64,000 nt of DNA from Thermosipho ferrireducens (lineage in GTDB: Bacteria; Thermotogota; Thermotogae; Thermotogales; Fervidobacteriaceae): contig NZ_CP071446.1 in NCBI RefSeq assembly GCF_017358165.1, forward strand, positions 868,001 to 932,000, given 5' to 3'. Made by a program: the position numbers and the translations under genes. Positions within the stretch are counted from its first letter, which is position 1. Every line of letters begins with the position of its first letter. Under the pieces are notes generated by a model. That model was not told where the DNA came from. It searched no databases and saw nothing but the letters and a program-made list of their open reading frames with translations. This document shows positions 6,551-64,000 of this stretch, piece by piece.

Positions 6551-6648
6551 GTCTTTAAAAGATGGTTTCAAAATGGAAGGAAATATGTTGACAGAAAAAG
6601 TTAATAAGGAATCATTTGCATTTTTGAAGGTAAGTGATCAAATAAACA

Positions 6649-6674
6649 AAATGGCAGGATTAAACCTGCCATTT
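6649..6674 (-). terminator. hairpin terminator downstream of tRNA-Pro
   Basis: 10-bp stem (AAATGGCAGG / CCTGCCATTT) with a 6-nt loop, about 55 bp 3' of the minus-strand tRNA gene. The T run on the minus side is interrupted (TTTTGTTTATTT), so it is a moderate terminator. Confidence 0.7.
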
Positions 6675-6728
6675 ATCGTATATTATCCTGTTTTATAAAT
6701 AATATTCTGGAATAGTGGTTTACAAGAA

Positions 6729-6805
6729 TGGTCTGGGCGGTGGGACTTGAACCCACGACCTCCAGATCCCGATTCTGGCGTTCTAGCCAACTGAACTACG
6801 CCCAG
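6729..6805 (-). tRNA. tRNA-Pro (anticodon CGG)
   Basis: 77 nt including an encoded 3' CCA. Acceptor stem CTGGGCG/CGCCCAG is perfect, with the C1-G72 pair typical of bacterial tRNA-Pro. D-arm GTTC...GAAC, anticodon stem CCAGA/TCTGG around loop ATCGGGA (anticodon CGG, reads CCG, G37), T-arm GTGGG/CCCAC with TTCAAGT. It is a single gene on the minus strand, flanked by REP-like repeats on its 5' side. Confidence 0.96.
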
Positions 6806-6857
6806 AGAGCACAAAATATTTTATCATATTGAAAGTGTGAAATCAAGGATTTGTAGA

Positions 6858-7167
6858 AGAGATTGGCGAGAGTTGGCGAGTGTTGGCAAGATTAGCGAGG
6901 ATTAGTAAAATAAGATCCCTCGTCATTACATTCCTCGGGATGACATCCCCCTCACATTCGTTCGGGATGACAATAAAGGAAAAGATCCTTCGTTGCTATG
7001 CTCCTCAGGATGACAAAAAACAGCGTGGTTGGATTTCACCTGTGTCATTCCGAACCCGAAGGGTGAGGAATCTTATGATTAGCGAGGTTGGCGAGAGTTA
7101 GTAAAAAAGATCCTTTGTCGTTGTGCTCCTCAGGATGACATCTCCCTCACATTCGCCTGGAATGACA
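6858..7167. repeat. REP-like and GGCGAG-type short repeat cluster
   Basis: Non-coding cluster between tRNA-Pro and rel. It has units of the form AGATCCYTCGT...CTCCTCAGGATGACA at about 6911-6945, 6990-7015 and 7105-7140, with one inverted unit (TGTCATTCCGAACCCGAAGG) at about 7042. These are flanked by short tandem variants of GATTGGCGAGAGTTAGCGAG at 6858-6906 and 7077-7101. The same two families recur near 59 kb. Short open frames here are not genes. The rest of 7168-7260 shows nothing recognisable. Confidence 0.85.
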
Positions 7168-7265
7168 GGAAAAGATGTTGTCATTAAACGTTGGATTGTC
7201 GATTTTATTGTTTTTCATTCTTTCTTTTCAAAAGTTCCTCATACTTTGTGAGAATTTTAGCAGAA

Positions 7266-7294
7266 TTTAAGGTTTAAAAATTTTGTGGTAAAAT
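7266..7294 (+). promoter_or_regulatory. probable rel promoter, extended -10
   Basis: TGGTAAAAT (7286-7294) is an extended -10 element; a weak -35 (TTTAAG, 7266-7271) lies 17 nt upstream. The rel start codon is 37 nt downstream. Confidence 0.5.
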
Positions 7295-7331
7295 AATAAA
7301 CAAAATTATTTTATTTTTAGGAAGTGGAAAT

Positions 7332-9458
7332 ATGATTATTACAGAGCAGTATATAGATGAATTGGAAAAGATTTCAGCGAAGAGTTTTTCTGAAAAAGAA
7401 AGAGTTTTATTAAAAAAGGCTTTAAATCTTGCAGAGTATGCCCATGAGGGGTTTTATCGTAAATCTGGAGAGCCTTTTATAACTCATCCTATGGAAGTTA
7501 CAAAAATACTTGCTACTTTAAAGCTCGATGTAATATCTTTGATAGCGGGTCTGCTTCATGATTCTGTAGAAGATAGCGAAGGAAAAGTAACTTTTGATGT
7601 GATACGTAAGGAATTTGGCGATACAGTTGCCATGATTGTTGATGGTGTAACAAAAGTAAGCAAGATCAATGCCCCTGTAGGATTTTCTGATCAAAAAAAG
7701 AAGAGTGAAACTATTCAAAAGATGCTATTTGCCATGGCAGAAGATGTTAGGGTTATATTTGTAAAACTTGCTGATAGATTGCATAATATGAGAACTCTTG
7801 GATTCGTTGAAGACGAAGAGAAAAGGAAATATAAGGCTTTAGAAACGCTGGAAGTGTACGCCCCTATAGCACATAAATTAGGAATTCACATTATAAAGTG
7901 GGAATTAGAAGACCTTTCTTTTAAAGTTTTACATCCAAAAGAATATTATGAGATTAAAGAGTTAGTTTCTGAAAAAAAGAAAGAAAGAGAAGAACGTACT
8001 AAAGAATATGTAAATCAGTTAAAACTCGCATTAAAAGAACACAATATTATTGCTGAAGTAGAAGGTCGTTATAAACATTACTACAGTATCTGGAGAAAAA
8101 TGGTGGAAAGAAAAAAAAGATTCGATGAAATTTACGACTTAATTGGAATTAGGGCTATTGTCAGGGATATAAGTTCGTGTTATACAGCAGTAGGTGTGGT
8201 TCACAATATGTGGGTACCACTTCCTGGAAGGTTTAAAGATTATATTGCAGCGCCAAAATCTAATGGTTACAAATCCATTCATACCACAGTGGTAACACAA
8301 TATGGAGAACCGTTAGAGGTGCAGATTCGCGATCACGAAATGCATAGAGAAGCTGAATATGGTCTAATTGCTCACTGGATTTATAAAGAAAAAAGTATTG
8401 ACGTTAAACAAAAGTGGCTTTTGCAGCTTCTTGATTGGAGAAGGGAACTGGTTTACGGGAGTACGAGTCTTAGTGATTTAAAAAAAGAGTTGCAGCTTGA
8501 GGAAGTCTTTGTATTAACACCCAAAGGTGAAATTATTCATATGCCGGTTGGTTCTACAGTGATAGATTTTGCCTATGCGATTCACACGGAAGTAGGGCAT
8601 CATTATGCAGGCGCAAAAGTCAATGGGAAGATAGTTTCAATAGATTATAAACTGAAAAACGGTGATGTTGTTGAAATATTAGTAAACAAAACCAGTAAAG
8701 GTCCGAGCCTGGATTGGTTGAAATATGCAAAGAGCTCAAGAACAAAGGCTAAAATAAGACGATTTTTTAGAGAAAAGGAAAAAGAGAGATTGGTAGAAGA
8801 AGGGAAAGACGTTATAAGAAGAATAGCTAAAAGGTTGGGGATTTCAATAGAAGCGTTATTGGAAAATGAGAAACTTTTAAAATTTATGGAATCGCATAAC
8901 CTGACCCGTGAAGAGTTTTTTATAAGAATAGGAGAAGGTATTTTTACTTTTAATGACCTTTTAAGTCTAATAGAGAAAAAGGAAGAGCAAAGGAAAAGAA
9001 TATCGAGCAGAAAAAGAAAGAAGCAGCGAAATCCTGTTGCAATAGATGGTGTGAAGACTATAGATGTTCATGTTGCGAAATGTTGTATGCCTGTGCCCGG
9101 TGATGAAATAGTTGGTGTTGCGAGCAGGCGGGGAATTACGATTCACAGGCTAGGATGTAAAAATATCAGAAACATTACCGAGGATAGAGTTTTTAAGGCT
9201 GATTGGGTTTCAGGAGAATCAGGATATTTTAGCACTACAATAGAAGTTGAAGTGGATAAGAATGAAAGACTTCCTGAACTTATGTCAATATTTATTTCAA
9301 AGGGTATATCTGTAAACAGCGTTAAAGTGTTTGAGCTTGAGAAATGGGATACAGTATACGTACGTTTTACAATTATGGTAAAATCTTTAAATGAACTTAC
9401 CAGTTTGATTAGAGAAATAGAAAAAAAGGCAGGGGTTGTGAAGGTGAGAAGAACATGA
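7332..9458 (+). CDS. rel: bifunctional (p)ppGpp synthetase/hydrolase, RelA/SpoT family
   Basis: Stringent-response enzyme of 708 residues with full domain order. The HD hydrolase has intact metal ligands (THP at 51-53, HDSVED at 76-81). The synthetase domain covers about 235-345 ([31 protein letters not shown]), TGS about 388-448, the conserved-cysteine region [10 protein letters not shown] follows, and a C-terminal ACT domain spans about 635-708. The position that reads RXKD in bifunctional Rel and EXDD in RelA reads RKKR (260-263), so the acidic residue is replaced by arginine. The intact HD motif supports a hydrolase-competent Rel. The gene overlaps dtd by four bases. Confidence 0.95.
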
Positions 9459-15694: not shown

Positions 15695-16477
15695 ATGAAT
15701 GTACCTAAAATAGTTAAAATGAAAGGTAAAGAAAAAATAGTAATGGCTACTGCTTATGATGCACCTACCGCCCGTATTTTACAGGATGCTGGTATTGATA
15801 TTATACTTGTAGGTGATTCTCTTGGAAATAATGTTTTGGGGTATGATAGTACGATTCCAGTTACAATGGAAGAAATGTTGATACATGTAAAAGCGGTAAG
15901 AAGAGGGGCAGATAACGCATTTATAGTAGCGGATATGCCTTTTTTGTCTTATGGTGTTAGCGTAGAAGAAGGAATAAAAAATGCAGGGTTATTTATGAAA
16001 GCAGGTGCAAATGCAGTTAAACTGGAAGGTGGGCGTGAATTTTCTGAACTTATAGGGAAATTGATATCCATAGGTATTCCTGTTATGGGGCATCTTGGTT
16101 TTACTCCTCAATCTCTAAATGTTGTAGGAGGTTATAAGGTTCGGGGTAAAGCAACAGAAGAAAAAGAAAGATTACTGGAAGATGCATCTATTCTGGAAGA
16201 AACTGGTGTATTCAGTATAGTTCTGGAGATGGTAATTGAAAATGTTGCAAAAGAGGTAACGGAAACTATTTCTATTCCAACAATAGGCATTGGCTCAGGT
16301 CGTTATTGTGATGGACAGGTTCTAGTTTTTCACGATATTGTTGGATTAAATCCTGATTTTAAACCAAAGTTTGCAAAAAGATATATGAACGCGTATGAGG
16401 AAATGCTAAAGGCGGTGTCACAGTTTAAAGATGAAGTAAAAAACAGAACTTTTCCCGCTGAAGAGCACAAATTTTAA
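15695..16477 (+). CDS. panB: 3-methyl-2-oxobutanoate hydroxymethyltransferase
   Basis: First committed step to pantothenate and coenzyme A: ketopantoate from ketoisovalerate and methylene-THF. 260 residues, normal length. Motifs MATAYDAPTARIL (about 16-28), DSLGNNVLGY (about 42-51), ADMPF (about 82-86), KLEGG (about 109-113), MGHLGFTPQS (about 127-136) and IGIGSG (about 192-197) are all present. SD GGAGGGA. It is followed after 16 bp by coaBC, the downstream step. Confidence 0.97.
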   Translation: MNVPKIVKMKGKEKIVMATAYDAPTARILQDAGIDIILVGDSLGNNVLGYDSTIPVTMEEMLIHVKAVRRGADNAFIVADMPFLSYGVSVEEGIKNAGLFMKAGANAVKLEGGREFSELIGKLISIGIPVMGHLGFTPQSLNVVGGYKVRGKATEEKERLLEDASILEETGVFSIVLEMVIENVAKEVTETISIPTIGIGSGRYCDGQVLVFHDIVGLNPDFKPKFAKRYMNAYEEMLKAVSQFKDEVKNRTFPAEEHKF

Positions 16478-16493
16478 TCTGGAGGAAGAGAGC

Positions 16494-17648
16494 ATGCATG
16501 TTTTGTTGGGAGTTTCAAGTGGCATAGCCATTTATAAAGCGGTGGATCTTGTTAGCAAATTCAGGAAAGAAGGTTATGAAACAAATGTTATTATGACTAA
16601 AAATGCAAAAAATTTAATAGCACCGGCTGTTTTTTCAGCGGTTGGGAATTGTAATGTGTATACAGATACTTTTGATGTAGATTCTGGATGGATAACTCAT
16701 ACAGAGCTATCAAGAAAAGCAAGTGTGTTTGTCGTTGCACCTGCAACAGCGAATATAATTGGTAAAATAGCAAATGGAATAGCAGACGATCTTTTATCAA
16801 CAATAGCAATTGCTGTTCCAGATAAGACTCCTAAGGTTATTGTACCAACCATGAATACAAGAATGTATGAAAACAACATTGTTCAGGAAAATTTAGAAAA
16901 GCTTAGAAAGATAGGATGGTATGTAGTAGAGCCGGAGGTAGGTCATTTAGCATGTGGTGAAATAGGAAAAGGAAGGTATCCTGAAAATGAAAAAATATTG
17001 GAGGTTGTAAAGTTTTTAACTTCGAAAAAAAAATTGAAAGATAAAAAAGTACTGATTACAGCAGGTCCAACTGTGGAAAGTATAGATCCTGTAAGGTTTA
17101 TTTCAAATCATTCAAGTGGAAAGATGGGATACGCGATAGCTACTGTTGCTAAGAGGTTGGGAGGAAATGTAACATTGATTTCTGGCCCAACTTCTTTAAA
17201 AAAACCGTACCTTGTCGATGAGTTTATAGAGGTTGTTAGTGCAGAAGAGATGTTTAATGAAACGATAATGAGATTCGAGAAAACAGATATTGTTATTATG
17301 GTAGCTGCAGTAGCTGATTACAAACCAAAAGAAGTAAGAAAACATAAGATAAAAAAGCAGGGAGATATGGTATTAGAACTTGTTAGAACAAAAGATATTC
17401 TCAAAGAAATAGGCAGAAGAAAAAGTCATCAATTAATTGTTGGATTTGCAGCAGAAACAGAAAACATTGTGGAAAATGCTCGAAAAAAACTTGAAGAGAA
17501 AAAAGTTGACATGATAATAGCAAATAATGCAACGAAAGTTATGGGAAGTGACAATAGTCATGCTTTTATAATTACTCGTAATCAAGTTGTTGAAGTAGAA
17601 GGGAGTAAAGAAGAAGTTGCGGAAAAGATATTTGAGTTTATCTATTAG
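16494..17648 (+). CDS. coaBC: bifunctional phosphopantothenoylcysteine decarboxylase / phosphopantothenate-cysteine ligase
   Basis: 384 residues. The N-terminal CoaC flavoprotein half has GVSSGIAIYKAVDL, APATANIIGKIANGIADDLL and TMNTRMYEN. The C-terminal CoaB half has ITAGPTVESIDPVRFISNHSSGKMG and AAVADYKP. Together they convert 4'-phosphopantothenate and cysteine to 4'-phosphopantetheine. Immediately follows panB, so this is a CoA operon. Its 3' end overlaps the following secreted protein if the TTG start of that gene is used. Confidence 0.97.
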   Translation: MHVLLGVSSGIAIYKAVDLVSKFRKEGYETNVIMTKNAKNLIAPAVFSAVGNCNVYTDTFDVDSGWITHTELSRKASVFVVAPATANIIGKIANGIADDLLSTIAIAVPDKTPKVIVPTMNTRMYENNIVQENLEKLRKIGWYVVEPEVGHLACGEIGKGRYPENEKILEVVKFLTSKKKLKDKKVLITAGPTVESIDPVRFISNHSSGKMGYAIATVAKRLGGNVTLISGPTSLKKPYLVDEFIEVVSAEEMFNETIMRFEKTDIVIMVAAVADYKPKEVRKHKIKKQGDMVLELVRTKDILKEIGRRKSHQLIVGFAAETENIVENARKKLEEKKVDMIIANNATKVMGSDNSHAFIITRNQVVEVEGSKEEVAEKIFEFIY

Positions 17649-18597
17649 AGTTAGCATAATGTTTTTTTTGTTTATTTCTTTTTCCGCTTTTTCTGTCTCA
17701 GTTGAAAAAGTGATCTACACGGGAACGGCGTATACTTTCCGCAATACAGTATGGGATAATTATTTAGTTTTAACAAGTTCACTTGAAAGAAAAGTTGTTA
17801 TAGTTGATCTTGAAAGTAGAGAAATTTATAAAGTAAAATCAAATGTGGGAATTTATCCTGTAATTTCATATATTTATAAAGAGTTTCTTATGGTTATTGA
17901 TGGGGTGGGAAAACAGTTACTTCTTTACAATGTGAAGAATATGAGTCTAATAAAGAATTATGAATTAAAAGCAAAGCCAATATTTAGTGAGAGAGTAGGC
18001 AATTATGTTTATATACTCGATATTAAAGGTAATATCTTTGGATTTGATTTTAACTTGAATATTATTTATTCCTATAATTTTATAGACAGTCCCACTTACT
18101 TTTATTTTTACAAAGGAAAGCCCATAGGATTAATTTTATGGGACAAAACGAAAGATTTTGAGCTGGATAGAAAGTTTTTCAATTATGACTTAATTACACC
18201 TTCTATAGTTGTTAATTCTTATTTGGTTGATACAAGGGGCGGTAAAATCCTGAATCTGGAGGGCGGGAAGATAAACAAGATTTCATCGTATCTCTCTTTT
18301 GCAACAATGTGGGATTCCTATTTAGTTGTCGGATCGTTATATACCAGGAAAATATATTTTTTAAAAAGTGATAAAATATATAAAGAAATAGAGTTGAAGT
18401 ATCAACCTACTTTAGGTTTAGTAAGTGAAAAATACCTGGTTGCTTTATCTGCATCAGACAATAAATTAATGTTGTACGATGGTCAAAAAGTGTTATATTA
18501 TGATACTGGAAAATATCCAATCTCAGTTTTTAAAATATCCAATGGAATAGTAGTTGTATGTGCTGATTTTGGTGAGGTATGGTTCTACAAATTTTAG
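17617..18597 (+). CDS. secreted protein, probable beta-propeller, unknown function
   Basis: 326 residues if started at TTG 17617, which supplies a basic n-region (RKR) before the hydrophobic segment SIMFFLFISFSAFS; an ATG at 17659 would leave almost no n-region. The rest is repeated short beta-strands (for example SYLVDTRGGKILNL, SEKYLVALSASDNKLMLYDG), resembling WD/PQQ-like propeller blades. I do not recognise a specific family. A larger protein of similar style lies at 37315-38991. Confidence 0.7.
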   Translation: MRKRYLSLSIRVSIMFFLFISFSAFSVSVEKVIYTGTAYTFRNTVWDNYLVLTSSLERKVVIVDLESREIYKVKSNVGIYPVISYIYKEFLMVIDGVGKQLLLYNVKNMSLIKNYELKAKPIFSERVGNYVYILDIKGNIFGFDFNLNIIYSYNFIDSPTYFYFYKGKPIGLILWDKTKDFELDRKFFNYDLITPSIVVNSYLVDTRGGKILNLEGGKINKISSYLSFATMWDSYLVVGSLYTRKIYFLKSDKIYKEIELKYQPTLGLVSEKYLVALSASDNKLMLYDGQKVLYYDTGKYPISVFKISNGIVVVCADFGEVWFYKF

Positions 18598-18623
18598 TGC
18601 TGTAGGAAGAAGGAGGTTGTGTT

Positions 18624-19229
18624 ATGAATGTAAAGAAATGGGTTGTTACACATTTTCCAACTATTAAGAAGGGTGCATCTGTTGGAGATGCTCTTCATAC
18701 GATGAGAGAGTATGCCTGCGATTATTGTATTGCGTTGGATGAGGAAGAAAAATTCGACGGAGTATTATACAAAAGTAGTATCTGGGAAGCAAATATGGAT
18801 GAAAAAATAGACGATTATATAACTTTTCCGGATTTTTACGTTGTTGAAGATTCAAATGTAGAAGAAGCCGCATTAATGATGATAGAAAATCGAGATCAAA
18901 TATTGCCTGTAGTAAACAACAACGCAGAAGTAATAGGAGTTCTTGGAGTCCAGGAGATTTTGGAAGCATTTACAGAACTTTCCGCTATGGATGAGCCCGG
19001 GATAAGAATAATTCTTGAACTTGCTGATAGGCCTGGAGAGTTAAAGAGAATAATAGATGTTCTGGCAAATAACCAGGTAAATATACTTTCAATTTTAACT
19101 CTTAAAGATGAGAATAGTAAACGTCAAATCTCCATAAAAGTCGATAGTGATGATCCGGAAAGCATCGCGAGCCTTCTGGAGATATACGAAATAAAATATC
19201 TTTCTATAATCGAGGAGGAAGGCTTTTAA
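18624..19229 (+). CDS. CBS-pair and ACT domain protein
   Basis: 201 residues. Two CBS motifs (about 1-55 and 60-120; VIGVLGVQEILEAF is the end of the second) are followed by an ACT domain (about 127-195, IRIILELADRPGELKRIIDVLANNQVNILSI). The AcuB-like layout suggests a small regulator binding a nucleotide and an amino acid. Its partner is not evident. SD GGAGG before the ATG. It lies upstream of scpA and probably in the same transcript. Confidence 0.85.
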   Translation: MNVKKWVVTHFPTIKKGASVGDALHTMREYACDYCIALDEEEKFDGVLYKSSIWEANMDEKIDDYITFPDFYVVEDSNVEEAALMMIENRDQILPVVNNNAEVIGVLGVQEILEAFTELSAMDEPGIRIILELADRPGELKRIIDVLANNQVNILSILTLKDENSKRQISIKVDSDDPESIASLLEIYEIKYLSIIEEEGF

Positions 19230-57796: not shown

Positions 57797-58726
57797 AAAT
57801 TCATTCCTTATAGGTAGAAGCTAAACATTTTATAAAGGATTTAGAAAAAAAGTGGAGCAAGTAAGCTCGTTTTCATTCCTTATAGGTAGAAGCTAAACCG
57901 AAATTTATGTTTAAAAAAATAATGATTATTATTGGTGTTTTCATTCCTTATAGGTAGAAGCTAAACCGTACGAACGAAAGCACTATTATTTTGTGGATGT
58001 TGTTTTCATGTTTTCATTCCTTATAGGTAGAAGCTAAACCGATAGTAGAAGAATAATGTTACCCCCCGCAGGCAAAAGTTTTCATTCCTTATAGGTAGAA
58101 GCTAAACCATACATAGTTTGCATTCTTAGTAATTAATCCATCTATGTTTTCATTCCTTATAGGTAGAAGCTAAACCTCTTTGAAAAGTGAATAGCCAGGA
58201 AACCCGAATAGGGGTTTTCATTCCTTATAGGTAGAAGCTAAACCTGAAATAATACAAGAATTGAAGGACTGGGGATGGCTTGTTTTCATTCCTTATAGGT
58301 AGAAGCTAAACCAGGCCCTTGATAGTAGAGGAGTAGTATGGAGGTGGTTTTGTTTTCATTCCTTATAGGTAGAAGCTAAACCGATATTATAAAAGAAGCT
58401 TTAGACAATGCACAAGCCAAATGTTTTCATTCCTTATAGGTAGAAGCTAAACAACAAATGAAGAGGTTATATAATGATTTAAAGAAGTTTGTTTTCATTC
58501 CTTATAGGTAGAAGCTAAACGTTCATACTGATAAGCTTGACTAAAAGCCGATATATGTTTTCATTCCTTATAGGTAGAAGCTAAACCCTCAATGTACGAA
58601 CATAATACCATTGGCAGGTTCATACTGTTTTCATTCCTTATAGGTAGAAGCTAAACTTATGGATAAATTGGCGTTGTTTAAGGAATTTAAATCAGGGTTT
58701 TCATTCCTTATAGGTAGAAGCTAAAC
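57797..58726 (-). CRISPR. CRISPR array, 14 repeats and 13 spacers
   Basis: Repeat is 30 nt. In minus-strand orientation it begins GTTTAGCTTCTACC and ends AAGGAATGAAAAC, giving an 8-nt tag ATGAAAAC of the kind that type I-B/III handles carry. Thirteen copies are identical (e.g. 57869-57898, 58697-58726); the leftmost (57797-57826) has lost its last bases in this orientation, as leader-distal copies often do. Spacers are 36-43 nt, mostly 38. I infer minus-strand transcription, with the leader to the right of 58726 next to the csm/cas6 operon. Confidence 0.97.
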
Positions 58727-59366: not shown

Positions 59367-60101
59367 TTATTTTTTTATAGTTTCAATCAAGCCAAATCCT
59401 AATGAATTTTTAGCACCAAGTCCTGTTTCATAAGCTATTTTCAAAAGCATAGGATCACCATATAAATCAAACGCAGTCATCCACCCTGTTATTTTAAATC
59501 CTTTGTATATAACTTGAACTTTTTTTGGTTTTTTTCCTGCATGAATTACTGAAATTCTACCCTCAGGTAGTTTTGAATGTATTGTTTGATATTTTTTAAT
59601 CAAATTCTTCTCCAATAACTCCTGGAACTTTTTATCATCTGGATGATAAAACAAAGTCTTTTTCCTTCCAAAATTATCTAAATATGTTGAGTATACAGTT
59701 ACCGGTGATCTGGTAACTACTTTTAATTCATCAGCTGGCTCGAAATTTTTTGCTATAACAGTATCTATTTGTAATATATTCCTTCCTAATCTTATTTCTC
59801 CAAATTTCAATAAAGTTTGCATTAAATAATTGCAGAAATTATCGTCCATGGAAGATATTATCAACTTTACTTTGTTAAAAAACATTATACTATTTTTTTC
59901 TTTATTTATTTCAAAATTTCCTAAAAGTCGAGAAAATGTGTATAATTTAAATTTTCTTTTTTCAAAAGCAAATCCCTCATCGTGAATAAATTTTCTATAT
60001 TCGTCACTATTTATTAGATTCAAAATAGCAGCTTGTAACATATGGTTGTAATCAATGGGAAGTTCAACAGTATCAAGGGAGAAATTAACGTATAACCTCA
60101 G
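59367..60101 (-). CDS. cas6: CRISPR pre-crRNA endoribonuclease Cas6, CTG start
   Basis: 244 residues when started at CTG 60101, giving MRLYVNFSLDTVELPIDYNH, the normal Cas6 N-terminus. The first ATG (60041) would cut off the first RAMP strand. CTG overlaps the upstream stop as CTGA, with GGAGGG six bases before it. His40 (FIHDEGF) aligns with the general-base histidine of Cas6; FKLYTFSRLLG follows, and the C-terminus has the glycine-rich loop GLGAKNSLGFG. It should cut the array transcript in each repeat. Confidence 0.9.
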   Translation of the reverse strand: MRLYVNFSLDTVELPIDYNHMLQAAILNLINSDEYRKFIHDEGFAFEKRKFKLYTFSRLLGNFEINKEKNSIMFFNKVKLIISSMDDNFCNYLMQTLLKFGEIRLGRNILQIDTVIAKNFEPADELKVVTRSPVTVYSTYLDNFGRKKTLFYHPDDKKFQELLEKNLIKKYQTIHSKLPEGRISVIHAGKKPKKVQVIYKGFKITGWMTAFDLYGDPMLLKIAYETGLGAKNSLGFGLIETIKK

Positions 60102-60718
60102 AAAAATCCCTCCATAATATATCTATTATTTTTTCTAAAATCTTGATTACCCATAATATAACCTGAAAAACCTGAATCACTGTCTAAACCTAATATATTT
60201 GCCAAATAAATTAATTCAGATGATCCATATAAATAAATTTTTTTAAATTTTTCTTTCTTTGATTCTCTAAAAATAATTAAAAAAGAATTGTTATCTGGTT
60301 CTTTATTGAAAATTCTTCTATATTTTTCAATAAGTTTTTTCCTTATTGATTCGCTCATAATTATTTGATTTCCACTATACTGTTTCACTTGTGAAATTAA
60401 GTATCCTTCATAAAATTGCTCGATTTTTTTAACGAAAACATTTTGTGGCCTTTCTTTACCAAAAAAGTTATAATTCAACAATCTAGGAATAGTAGACGAT
60501 AATTTTTCACAATATAAAGTTTTAATTGAAATGAAAGACTTTCCTAATATATAGCACCCATTCTCGGAACGAAATTTCTTTTTAGCAAAAAAACCAAAAA
60601 AGTTGTAATATTCAAATCCTATCTTATCAAAAGTAAATTTTAAATTTTGTAATCTTCTAGAGTCTAACAAAAATGGGAATTTGAAATAAAATTCAATATT
60701 TATATTCACGCCAAACAT
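60098..60718 (-). CDS. unrecognised RAMP-like protein between csm5 and cas6
   Basis: 206 residues, not a family I recognise. The N-terminus VNINIEFYFKFPFLLDSRR looks like the first strand of a RAMP ferredoxin fold, and GLDSDSGFSGYIMG (177-190) near the C-terminus resembles a weakened glycine-rich loop of Cas6 or Cas5. No Cas6-type histidine motif, HEPN or CARF motif is visible. SD GGAG five bases before the ATG; 9 bp after csm5 and CTGA-coupled to cas6, so it belongs to the Csm operon. It could be a second inactive Cas6-like subunit or a new accessory protein. Confidence 0.75.
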   Translation of the reverse strand: MFGVNINIEFYFKFPFLLDSRRLQNLKFTFDKIGFEYYNFFGFFAKKKFRSENGCYILGKSFISIKTLYCEKLSSTIPRLLNYNFFGKERPQNVFVKKIEQFYEGYLISQVKQYSGNQIIMSESIRKKLIEKYRRIFNKEPDNNSFLIIFRESKKEKFKKIYLYGSSELIYLANILGLDSDSGFSGYIMGNQDFRKNNRYIMEGFF

Positions 60719-60727
60719 AATTGCTCC

Positions 60728-61768
60728 TTAATTTAAAGTAATTTTAGCCCAACCTAAAGGAATCCAATAATTTCCCTCTTTTATTACTCTTCTAGTTTTA
60801 GGAAAAAGCTTAACACTAATTTTCCTCCCTCTATTTCCTAAAATTTTTTTCAAATTCCCTATACTTTTAGAATCCATACTTTTCACAAGTGTTTTAGAAT
60901 AAAAACCTGTTGAAGCACCCAACTGTACTAAAAATTGATTTTCAGACAATTTTATTGAGCTTAAATATTTGTAAAACTTAAGTAAAGGTAAAACTTTATA
61001 ACGTTCCAAGATACTTAATTCATGATCAACATAATCTTCATATCCTTTTTTTAATCTTTCGACGAAGTTATCAAGTATTTCTGAATTTTTTATAAAATTA
61101 CTATTCATAAATCTATAATCTATTACAATTTCTCCACGTAGTTTTATACCTTTATCCAAAACTTCATAGTACAAAGGGATAGATTTCTTATTTTCATTCA
61201 ACTTTACAACTTCTATCATCTTAACCTTTAGATTTTTAACATCAATTGTTTCACTATCAAAAATTTTTAACATCCTAAAAGGTGATTCATTAGGAGTTCC
61301 AAATAACTCTCTATCAACAGTATCATCAAAAAATTTTGATTTTCCATATGAAGTTTTGAATAATTTCACAGAATATTTTTCTGTATACTTTGTACCTTTA
61401 ATCAAAAAAGTCCTTATAGCTCCTTTTAAAGAAGAACCTGGTATGTAAGGCCTCCCAGCCGTTTTTACAAATTCATTTATTCTAAGGTTTCTTGGCAAAT
61501 ATCCTTTCAAACTATGTTTTATGTATTTTGAATAATCCACATTAAAAAACCTTAATACTTTTTTTATTTCTTCAGAACTTTCTAATATTTCTGGATATTC
61601 AATTAAATAATTAAGGAAATTTTCTTCTTGAGACATTAACTTCTGAAAATCTAAAACATATGCACTATTCCCATCTTTAATTACTTCGAAACTCTGAATA
61701 ACTTCTCCTGAACAAATTGCCAATGGGGTAATTATTTCAAGTTCATACTTATATTTTTTTATTTTCAT
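60728..61768 (-). CDS. csm5: type III-A CRISPR RAMP protein Csm5
   Basis: 346 residues. IITPLAICSGE at the start, IPGSSLKGAIRTFLIKGT (RAMP glycine loop near 110) and VQLGASTGFYSKTLV near 285 are Csm5 features. It caps the 3' end of the crRNA backbone in the Csm complex and takes part in crRNA maturation. ATGA overlap with csm4, SD GGAGG. Confidence 0.92.
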   Translation of the reverse strand: MKIKKYKYELEIITPLAICSGEVIQSFEVIKDGNSAYVLDFQKLMSQEENFLNYLIEYPEILESSEEIKKVLRFFNVDYSKYIKHSLKGYLPRNLRINEFVKTAGRPYIPGSSLKGAIRTFLIKGTKYTEKYSVKLFKTSYGKSKFFDDTVDRELFGTPNESPFRMLKIFDSETIDVKNLKVKMIEVVKLNENKKSIPLYYEVLDKGIKLRGEIVIDYRFMNSNFIKNSEILDNFVERLKKGYEDYVDHELSILERYKVLPLLKFYKYLSSIKLSENQFLVQLGASTGFYSKTLVKSMDSKSIGNLKKILGNRGRKISVKLFPKTRRVIKEGNYWIPLGWAKITLN

Positions 61769-62694
61769 ATTGTGCCTCCTTTATTAATTGGGATTAAATA
61801 GGCACGGCCAAATTTTAATACCTTATGTTTAAATAAATCCGGAGTTGTATCTAAAATTTTTCCAACTATTCTTCCTTCCAAAACACTTCCTTCTTCAAAG
61901 AATCTTATTAAAGGCTGTCTTTTGGTAGAATCGTAAAGTGAATAAATAAATCCAGTTTTTTCTGCTAATTTATAATACTTAAACTTCGAAACTTCTTCCG
62001 AATTTTTTGGAAAGCACAAAGAAAGTAACAAATAATTTGAATCATCTTTTTGTTCAAATTTTATTTCCTCCAATTCAAAATCAAAATTTCCCAGTCCATA
62101 GGTTCTTTCGCCCCCTAATCCCTCATCACTTAACAACTTTAATGATGCTAGTATTTCTTTCTCCAAAGATTCATCAACATCAAGTACAAACCAAAGTCCC
62201 GCATTTTCTTTAAACCTAACAGAAGAAAAATAATAAATATTGGTTTCATTAGTGATTCTGTCAACTGCTATCCGAGGCCTTTCTTCAATGTTGAAAGGAA
62301 AAATAACCTCATCATCTGAAGCAAATATTCCATCAACAATTAATTTGTCATATTTTCCTATTAAAATTTCCTCACTAACGTACTTAACTTTTTTTAATTT
62401 TTTAAAATCATAACCTTGACCTTTTACAAACCTATAACCCAGAGGTTTTGGATAAAAATACTTACCGTCTATATAATAAAAAGCAGAAGATAACGAAAAA
62501 ACTTCAGGGTTTTTCAATAATTTATTTACAAATTTCTCAGTTTTTTCCTTACCATATAACAAATTATATGCATTAGTTATTCCAGAAAACAAAGTATCTG
62601 AATGAATAATAGAATCTGTTAAATTGTAAACTCCCTCTTTAATCCCTATATGAAAAGGAGATTTAAATTTTAATTTCACCCTATAACTTTTCAT
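61765..62694 (-). CDS. csm4: type III-A CRISPR RAMP protein Csm4
   Basis: About 309 residues from ATG 62694 (MKSYRVKLKFKSPFHIG); a GTG at 62709 would add five residues and overlap csm3. SIIHSDTLFSGITNAY (about 25-40) and SDEGLGGERTYGLGNF (about 193-208) are Csm4 motifs. Binds the crRNA 5' tag and Cas10 in the complex. Placed between csm3 and csm5 as usual. Confidence 0.93.
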   Translation of the reverse strand: MKSYRVKLKFKSPFHIGIKEGVYNLTDSIIHSDTLFSGITNAYNLLYGKEKTEKFVNKLLKNPEVFSLSSAFYYIDGKYFYPKPLGYRFVKGQGYDFKKLKKVKYVSEEILIGKYDKLIVDGIFASDDEVIFPFNIEERPRIAVDRITNETNIYYFSSVRFKENAGLWFVLDVDESLEKEILASLKLLSDEGLGGERTYGLGNFDFELEEIKFEQKDDSNYLLLSLCFPKNSEEVSKFKYYKLAEKTGFIYSLYDSTKRQPLIRFFEEGSVLEGRIVGKILDTTPDLFKHKVLKFGRAYLIPINKGGTI

Positions 62695-62698
62695 ATTA

Positions 62699-63523
62699 TC
62701 ATTCCCCACTTAATAATTTATTTTCTAATTCCTCCCAATTAACCTCTTCAAGATTAACTTCCACACATTTTTCACCAATTTTTGGATTTTCATAAAAGTT
62801 TTTATTCCTGAACTTTATCTTTACATCTTTAAACTTTATCTTTCCATATCCCCTTGAACCACTACCACCTAAATAATCATCCTCAAGTAGCATCATTGCC
62901 CTTAAAAACTCTTTTAAATATTTAATTCCATCCCCTTCATATACATTAATCACAAATTCAGATGAAAATCTTGCACCAGCTGGAACTCTTTCGGTTTTCC
63001 TTGGATGTGCAATTGCTGTAATTCTATCCAGATTATTTTCATTTTTAACTTCTGTATATTTAGTTTCCAAATACTCCATCATTTCAGGTGTAATACTATC
63101 TTCAATTAGCAAAGAATCCCTTACAATTAATCTTGTTGGCATTAAGTTTTTAAATTCTTCTTCTTTTTTTTCTTTGTCACTAACAAATTTATGTTTTCCG
63201 TGGTTTCGTCCAAACAAATTGCATACTGGACAATCCTCTTCATCGCACATATGAATTTTTATACTTTGGCTTTCACTATCTTTTTTTACTGTGTAAACTA
63301 ACAAATCAGGTTTTATCTTCTCATGATAATATTCCATCAAAGTTCTTAATTTCCCCTTTAAACTTGAACCAGGAATATACGGTCTTCCCAATGAATCTTT
63401 AATTACAGGATTATCTATACCACCAATTTCCATATTATTTTCTTCTGTGCCAATATGTAAACCTGTTTCTAATTCGATCTCACTCTCAATTATAAATTTT
63501 CCAACAAACTTTATCTCTTTCAT
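62699..63523 (-). CDS. csm3: type III-A CRISPR backbone RNase Csm3
   Basis: 274 residues from ATG 63523 with GGGGG seven bases upstream; the longer start at 63556 overlaps csm2. Starts MKEIKFVGKFIIESEIELET. GLHIG precedes GGIDNP, whose Asp37 aligns with the catalytic Asp33 of Streptococcus thermophilus Csm3; then YIPGSSLKGKLR, a cysteine-rich insert MCDEEDCPVCNLFGRN that may bind zinc, and GGSGSRGYGKI. It cuts target RNA at 6-nt steps. Confidence 0.95.
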   Translation of the reverse strand: MKEIKFVGKFIIESEIELETGLHIGTEENNMEIGGIDNPVIKDSLGRPYIPGSSLKGKLRTLMEYYHEKIKPDLLVYTVKKDSESQSIKIHMCDEEDCPVCNLFGRNHGKHKFVSDKEKKEEEFKNLMPTRLIVRDSLLIEDSITPEMMEYLETKYTEVKNENNLDRITAIAHPRKTERVPAGARFSSEFVINVYEGDGIKYLKEFLRAMMLLEDDYLGGSGSRGYGKIKFKDVKIKFRNKNFYENPKIGEKCVEVNLEEVNWEELENKLLSGE

Positions 63524-63539
63524 ATTTTTACCCCCTTTA

Positions 63540-64000
63540 TTATTCTTTCCCACCATAATATTTATGATAAGCTATAAGAGCTTCGAAAAAATCTTTAAAT
63601 CTTTTAAAAGCTTCCTCATCTTTTTCAGATACTTTCAATACAAGAGTTTTTATTGAATCTACAAATTCCTTATTGCTAAACCCCTTCTTTTTAATGCTAT
63701 ACAAGAATACAGCCATAAATCTTTTTAATTCATATTTGTAATTTTCTGTGCTAATTCGTTTTACAAAACTAAAATATTTTCTTAATTGTGTAGAAGATAG
63801 TTCTTTTTTTTCATTTTCTTTTTTATCTTTCTTTGATTTTTCACCATTTTTAGAGTCCTTTTTTGGCGCGATTAGCTTTGCCAAGCTTTTAGAATATTCA
63901 AACAAAAGTTGACCATCTGGATCTTTTTTGTCATCTAAAATTTTATCTGCAAGTTCTTCATTAATTATAAATCTGTCGTTTTGTTTAACATATTCACCAT
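63540..64000 (-). CDS. csm2: type III-A CRISPR small subunit Csm2 (5' end outside window)
   Basis: The frame is open to the right edge, so at least 152 residues. Upstream of a possible TTG at 63905 it still reads as protein (GEYVKQNDRFIINEELADKI), as expected in Csm2. STQLRKYFSFVKRIS is the signature helix. It lines the inner filament of the Csm complex. Cas10/csm1 is expected just beyond the window. No cas1/cas2 in the visible part. Confidence 0.88.
   Translation of the reverse strand, partial: GEYVKQNDRFIINEELADKILDDKKDPDGQLLFEYSKSLAKLIAPKKDSKNGEKSKKDKKENEKKELSSTQLRKYFSFVKRISTENYKYELKRFMAVFLYSIKKKGFSNKEFVDSIKTLVLKVSEKDEEAFKRFKDFFEALIAYHKYYGGKE

Follow-up and report, generated by a model that had tools for sequence, protein, structure and literature searches.

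The question raised by this locus was what protein is encoded by a small gene lying between csm5 and cas6 in a type III-A csm operon, and what it might do there. The gene, here called X, was found in a 64,000-nucleotide stretch of Thermosipho ferrireducens DNA (referred to as the window) as an open reading frame of 206 codons with an ATG start (coordinates 60098 to 60718, minus strand), directly 3' of csm5 (60728 to 61768, minus strand; TIGR01899, 1.9e-34). The original prediction had placed a 206-residue gene between csm5 and cas6, bounded by a 9-bp gap and a CTGA overlap, and this description proved accurate. The gap (60719 to 60727, minus strand) follows the csm5 stop codon (60728 to 60730). 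Read 5' to 3' on the minus strand, the csm5 end TTAAATTAA is followed by GGAGCAATT and then by the ATG of the X frame, and an AAGGAG sequence spanning the csm5 stop codon and the gap is, as judged from the sequence, a good candidate Shine-Dalgarno site for X. Upstream of csm5 on the same strand are csm4 (61765 to 62709; TIGR01903, 5.2e-90), csm3 (62699 to 63556; TIGR02582, 2.1e-67) and csm2 (63540 to 63998; TIGR01870, 1.5e-13), the 5' end of which lies outside the window (complete ORF at L013, 13540 to 14040). Genes for Cas10, a CARF-HEPN Csx1 and a SAVED-Lon protease are located past the window edge, upstream of the csm genes.

The gene that follows X is a canonical cas6 (59367 to 60101, minus strand; TIGR01877, 2.1e-40), with Tyr18, His40, Lys48 and Lys52 all present in the alignment. 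The TGA of X (60098 to 60100) overlaps a CTG (60099 to 60101), with the X frame ending in TTTTTCTGA and CTGAGG beginning a Cas6 reading LRLYVNF. As the starts of Cas6 orthologues, whether ATG, TTG or GTG, fall at this same residue and a GGAGG motif lies ~7 nt ahead of the CTG, the cas6 gene in the window very probably uses this rare start codon. ORF callers limited to ATG, GTG and TTG place the cas6 start 60 bp downstream, at 60041. A non-standard start codon may likewise be used by X in one other genome (G015; L076, coordinates 7468 to 8100), where the frame includes no ATG, GTG or TTG until codon 40. A CRISPR array of 14 copies of the 30-bp repeat GTTTTCATTCCTTATAGGTAGAAGCTAAAC, the first of them degenerate, was found ~640 bp downstream of cas6 (57797 to 58726, no strand assigned), and the 30-nt repeat RNA on the putative strand is GTTTAGCTTCTACCTATAAGGAATGAAAAC.

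The window X protein had no significant match in Pfam or NCBIfam, and neither X alone nor an X profile found anything significant in Pfam, NCBIfam or the PDB sequences. Matches to DUF3452 (0.083) and to PDB entry 4npx (0.0056) were judged to be due to chance. When PADLOC was included with Pfam and NCBIfam, the only profiles to score significantly on X were those for Cas6. PADLOC Cas6 profile PDLC01556 matched window X at 7.4e-16 over residues 4-179, nearly its whole length, and a second Cas6 profile, PDLC01473, matched at 2.2e-9. Across the 103 Thermotogota genomes searched, X orthologues in other genera matched PDLC01556 at up to 7.5e-100, and the orthologue in G030 matched PDLC01473 at 4.4e-90, values at which both profiles appear to have been built from the X family or near relatives, already named Cas6. 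One profile library already files the family under the name Cas6. At family level, X thus matches a named Cas family with confidence, which weakens the earlier view of it as an unknown gene and a new accessory component.

Further evidence connects X to Cas6. The X orthologue in G020 acts as a bridge, matching the Cas6 equivalog TIGR01877 at 5.5e-13, under the curated cut-off of that model, and exceeding the cut-off of 23 bits for Pfam Cas_Cas6_C (PF01881) with a score of 48.5 bits. The X family aligned colinearly with the adjacent Cas6 family in hhalign (E 8e-7), and a profile built from 14 X proteins retrieved ordinary cas6 genes from Thermotogota genomes at 7e-6 to 6e-4. The AlphaFold2 model of X (pLDDT 89.7, pTM 0.86) has two tandem ferredoxin-like (RAMP) domains, and the best 14 matches to it in a Foldseek search of the PDB were all Cas6 proteins, including 5yi6 at 1.3e-9; the TM score against Pyrococcus furiosus Cas6 (3i4h) was 0.70. 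Taken together, the profile matches, the G020 bridge, the hhalign and X-profile results and the predicted structure establish the relationship, and X is almost certainly a homologue with the Cas6 fold. The profile-profile and structural comparisons with Cas folds that the original prediction had suggested both led to Cas6. An identity as Csm5, Csm4 or Csm3 (Cas7, Cas5) was not indicated, as no Csm profile matched X and the best Foldseek matches were to Cas6 only. No CARF or HEPN domain was detected in X by Pfam, NCBIfam or PADLOC.

The residues associated with cleavage were compared in a joint alignment of X and Cas6. In the adjacent Cas6 family, Tyr18, His40, Lys48, Arg49 and Lys52 are invariant. 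The His40 column is gapped in all 14 X orthologues and the surrounding segment is missing; the Tyr18 position is aliphatic or Phe in 13 of the 14 proteins and Tyr in one, and the positions of Lys48 and Lys52 are unconserved, with K, S, Q, N, E, D, R and others. The window X protein includes no histidine at all, which agrees with the original observation that a Cas6 histidine is lacking, along with HEPN and CARF motifs. In the C-terminal glycine-rich loop (GxGxKxxxGFG), only the first Gly is kept (13/14), most X proteins lack K231 and G237, and the G020 orthologue alone has a near-complete loop. Among the polar residues, conservation is highest at S41, K46 (13/14), K47 (11/14) and Y56, with R/K66 a further conserved basic position, and S41 is replaced by Phe in window X.

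Loss of the histidine by itself does not prove inactivity, as some Sulfolobus Cas6 proteins cut without one; two S. solfataricus paralogues cleave without a general acid/base, via conserved basic residues (PMC3727216). As the whole catalytic segment has been lost from X without a conserved substitute, cleavage is nonetheless unlikely, and with a high degree of confidence X is not a Cas6-type nuclease. A canonical Cas6 is present in every genome that carries X.

The search of the 103 Thermotogota genomes with the 14-protein profile identified X in 15, belonging to several genera, with weaker matches, which were cas6 genes or chance, excluded from this count. X was located immediately after csm5 in 14 of these genomes. 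In the fifteenth, G005, it is found beside SAVED-Lon genes on a contig apart from csm, and lies there (contig C13; L104, coordinates 6829 to 7479) between two helicase-like genes, adjoining a split SAVED-Lon gene. The gene following X is cas6 in 10 of the 15 genomes. At least three loci (L018, L075 and L076) have X without an adjacent cas6, and in L019 cas6 is upstream of cas10, where a masked stretch downstream might conceal something. csm5 is the constant neighbour of X, and the coupling of X to csm5 is stronger than that to cas6. The csm loci of G001 and G019 have no X. No X homologues were found in viral contigs, plasmids or phages, and the context in the genomes searched was exclusively CRISPR. 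A scan of GTDB contigs with the four closest X sequences recovered one Thermosipho locus (L088), whose contig is as long as C20 of G013 (32,715 bp) and probably identical with it, using short, exact patterns that distant homologues in other phyla may escape.

The X frame is open in all 15 genomes, with no internal stop in any copy. In the closest pair of orthologues (G017 and G002), pN was 0.027 and pS 0.171, giving a dN/dS of ~0.14, which indicates purifying selection. X is nevertheless the fastest-evolving of the cas genes compared, retaining ~37% identity where Cas6 keeps 66%, and for the G000/G013 pair dN was 0.56 for X against 0.24 for Cas6. The open frames, the synteny in 14 loci and the low dN/dS bear out the claim that X is a real gene beyond chance.

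A tree of Csm4 separated the loci carrying X from a second csm clade with support of 99/99. In the second clade, the gene after csm5 was found to encode Csx22 in nine loci and another protein of ~206 aa, Z, in three. Csx22 (PADLOC PDLC01475) is a type III-A family that also occurs in Thermotoga maritima, and examples directly after csm5 include those at L080 (8891 to 9511), L081 (10799 to 11464), L084 (12290 to 13009) and L085 (6996 to 7574). In the portion of the 2025 classification that lists the family, no function is stated for it (PMC12669027). The top 17 PDB matches to the AlphaFold2 model of Csx22 (pLDDT 91.5) were all Cas6 proteins or domains, although the title of the seventeenth reads only CRISPR-associated protein, and the TM score against T. 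thermophilus TTHA0078 was 0.73. Weak matches to Cas6 profiles were also present in the C-terminal part of one Csx22 protein. Z (L083, coordinates 6591 to 7211; also in G090 and G092) matched none of the profiles in PADLOC, Pfam or NCBIfam, and is apparently Cas6-like on inspection of its glycine-rich loop, GLGNKIENGFGEL.

Among the 30 csm loci that could be assessed (31 in total, one of which is cut by a contig end and was left out), the position after csm5 is taken by X, Csx22 or Z in 26; these are small Cas6-like genes, apparently without the histidine. The slot is occupied by an ordinary Cas6 in two loci (G019 and the second locus of G014), and neither one of the three families nor Cas6 follows csm5 in the csm loci of G001 and G005. 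The Csx22 profile gave no match to window X and none in G000. Grouping X and Csx22 as one profile family was rejected (hhalign E 0.47), and they are linked by slot and fold only. Given its slot and its model, Csx22 is assumed to play the part of X in the sister clade; however, the lack of profile similarity counts against a shared role, and the two may have been recruited independently, for different functions.

The explanation preferred here, though its chances are put at slightly below even, is that X belongs to the Cas6 family, no longer has catalytic activity and is dedicated to the III-A (Csm) effector as an adaptor at the Csm5 end. The placement as an adaptor at that end, taken by itself, is rated a little less probable. 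X would bind the repeat-derived 3' part of the Cas6-cut crRNA, or the Cas6-crRNA product, dock on the Csm backbone at its Csm5 (3' crRNA) end and, without cutting, help to load and seat the crRNA before or during 3' trimming. Type III complexes take Cas6-cut crRNA and trim its 3' end, with Cas6 generally not stably bound (PMC3807668, PMC4041471). Such an adaptor would best explain a protein with a Cas6 fold that does not cut, is made beside Csm5 and occurs in genomes that have an active Cas6. However, the fast divergence of X speaks against it, as a core subunit in tight packing would not usually evolve so quickly. RNA binding is also uncertain, as most members have a degenerate version of the glycine-rich loop that contacts RNA, and the sole hint of it in the sequences comes from K46, K47 and R/K66. 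That III-A loci elsewhere function without X or Csx22 is a further point against an adaptor.

The main rival is that X is the non-catalytic partner of Cas6 suggested originally, with a Cas6-X heterodimer shaping repeat recognition or product release outside the Csm complex. Homology to Cas6, the position of cas6 next after X in most genomes, translational coupling in the window and the existence of dimeric Cas6 enzymes (PMC3652601) are all consistent with this. However, X still follows csm5 in the three loci without an adjacent cas6 and in L019/L086, where cas6 is upstream of cas10, and Csx22 follows csm5 with cas6 far off (L080, L083). The relationship to Cas6 claimed for the partner is supported by sequence, profile and fold, but pairing specifically with Cas6 is not, and the heterodimer is considered unlikely. 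Next in rank is a nuclease with unusual chemistry, in which X is a second active crRNA-processing enzyme with a histidine-free site, perhaps for a second repeat type. The S. solfataricus paralogues offer a precedent and K46 and K47 are largely kept, but the entire catalytic helix-loop segment is deleted, the lysine and last glycine of the glycine-rich loop have gone from most X proteins, and the polar residues surviving across the 14 sequences are only the near-conserved S41, K46 and Y56, the first being Phe in the window. With a canonical Cas6 always present as well, this explanation is quite improbable.

Two other explanations carry less weight. X could be a decaying cas6 duplicate, or a functionless selfish remnant held by operon position alone, which would fit its fast evolution, its absence from the G001 and G019 csm loci and its detachment from csm in G005. 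This is disfavoured and thought very improbable, as the frame is intact throughout several genera and under constraint, a compact fold is predicted confidently, and the slot has repeatedly been occupied by a second family with a predicted Cas6 fold. The least probable proposal, with only a slim chance of being correct, is that X serves the cA-signalling arm, of which Csx1 and SAVED-Lon share these operons, as an accessory regulator or sensor and is not a crRNA factor. SAVED-Lon is found in most X operons and is near X in G005; however, X has neither a CARF nor a SAVED fold, its fold and homology being those of Cas6, and L075 and L018 carry X without SAVED-Lon nearby.

Compared with Cas6 (PDLC01556 and PDLC01473, annotated 'crRNA maturation'), X shares profile membership, the two-domain RAMP fold and a solely CRISPR context in the genomes searched, but lacks the catalytic segment, the Tyr and Lys residues and most of the glycine-rich loop, and is shorter (~205 aa against ~245 aa) and found alongside a canonical Cas6. 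Cas6 paralogues without catalytic activity are already on record, in P. furiosus. The 'Cas6 paralogous protein' of that species (PDB 3ufc) is that of Park et al. 2012, a study cited in PMC3727216. The protein is reportedly inactive. It resembles X as a Cas6-fold paralogue found alongside an active Cas6 (structural match 1e-6), but it is archaeal, and the comparison covers the fold. Csx22 (~190-205 aa) shares with X a position immediately 3' of csm5 in the III-A loci of Thermotogota and best structural matches to Cas6, but has a clearer glycine-rich loop and is confined to the sister csm clade. An analogy can also be drawn with Cas6e and Cas6f, where a Cas6-fold protein is held at the crRNA 3' end of Cascade, though these are catalytic type I subunits and X is known here from its gene and predicted fold.

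What had been an unknown gene is now a Cas6 paralogue that has kept the fold and the place by csm5 and lost the cutting machinery, and is tied to the III-A family Csx22 through slot and predicted fold. The X lineage seems to be a Cas6 without catalysis, dedicated to the slot after csm5, which Csx22 fills with the same predicted fold, and a label of 'Cas6' given to X by automatic annotation would wrongly imply a nuclease. If X and Csx22 are bound to Csm, Thermotogota type III complexes would have a Cas6-like subunit at the 3' end, and the handover of Cas6 products to Csm complexes would become directly testable. A more speculative extension, and an unlikely one at present, is that an extra subunit is a standing part of Thermotogota III-A effectors, a dead Cas6-fold protein by Csm5 at the crRNA 3' end, supplied by X or Csx22 according to clade and forming a Cas6-type 3' cap as in Cascade.

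The Csx1 and SAVED-Lon genes just upstream of the window csm operon (L013, coordinates 16347 to 18998; L105, coordinates 169 to 2100) place two cA-activated effectors of the CalpL/CalpT kind in one operon, and in relatives a CRISPR-T gene was found next to these effectors (L014, coordinates 17869 to 18723).
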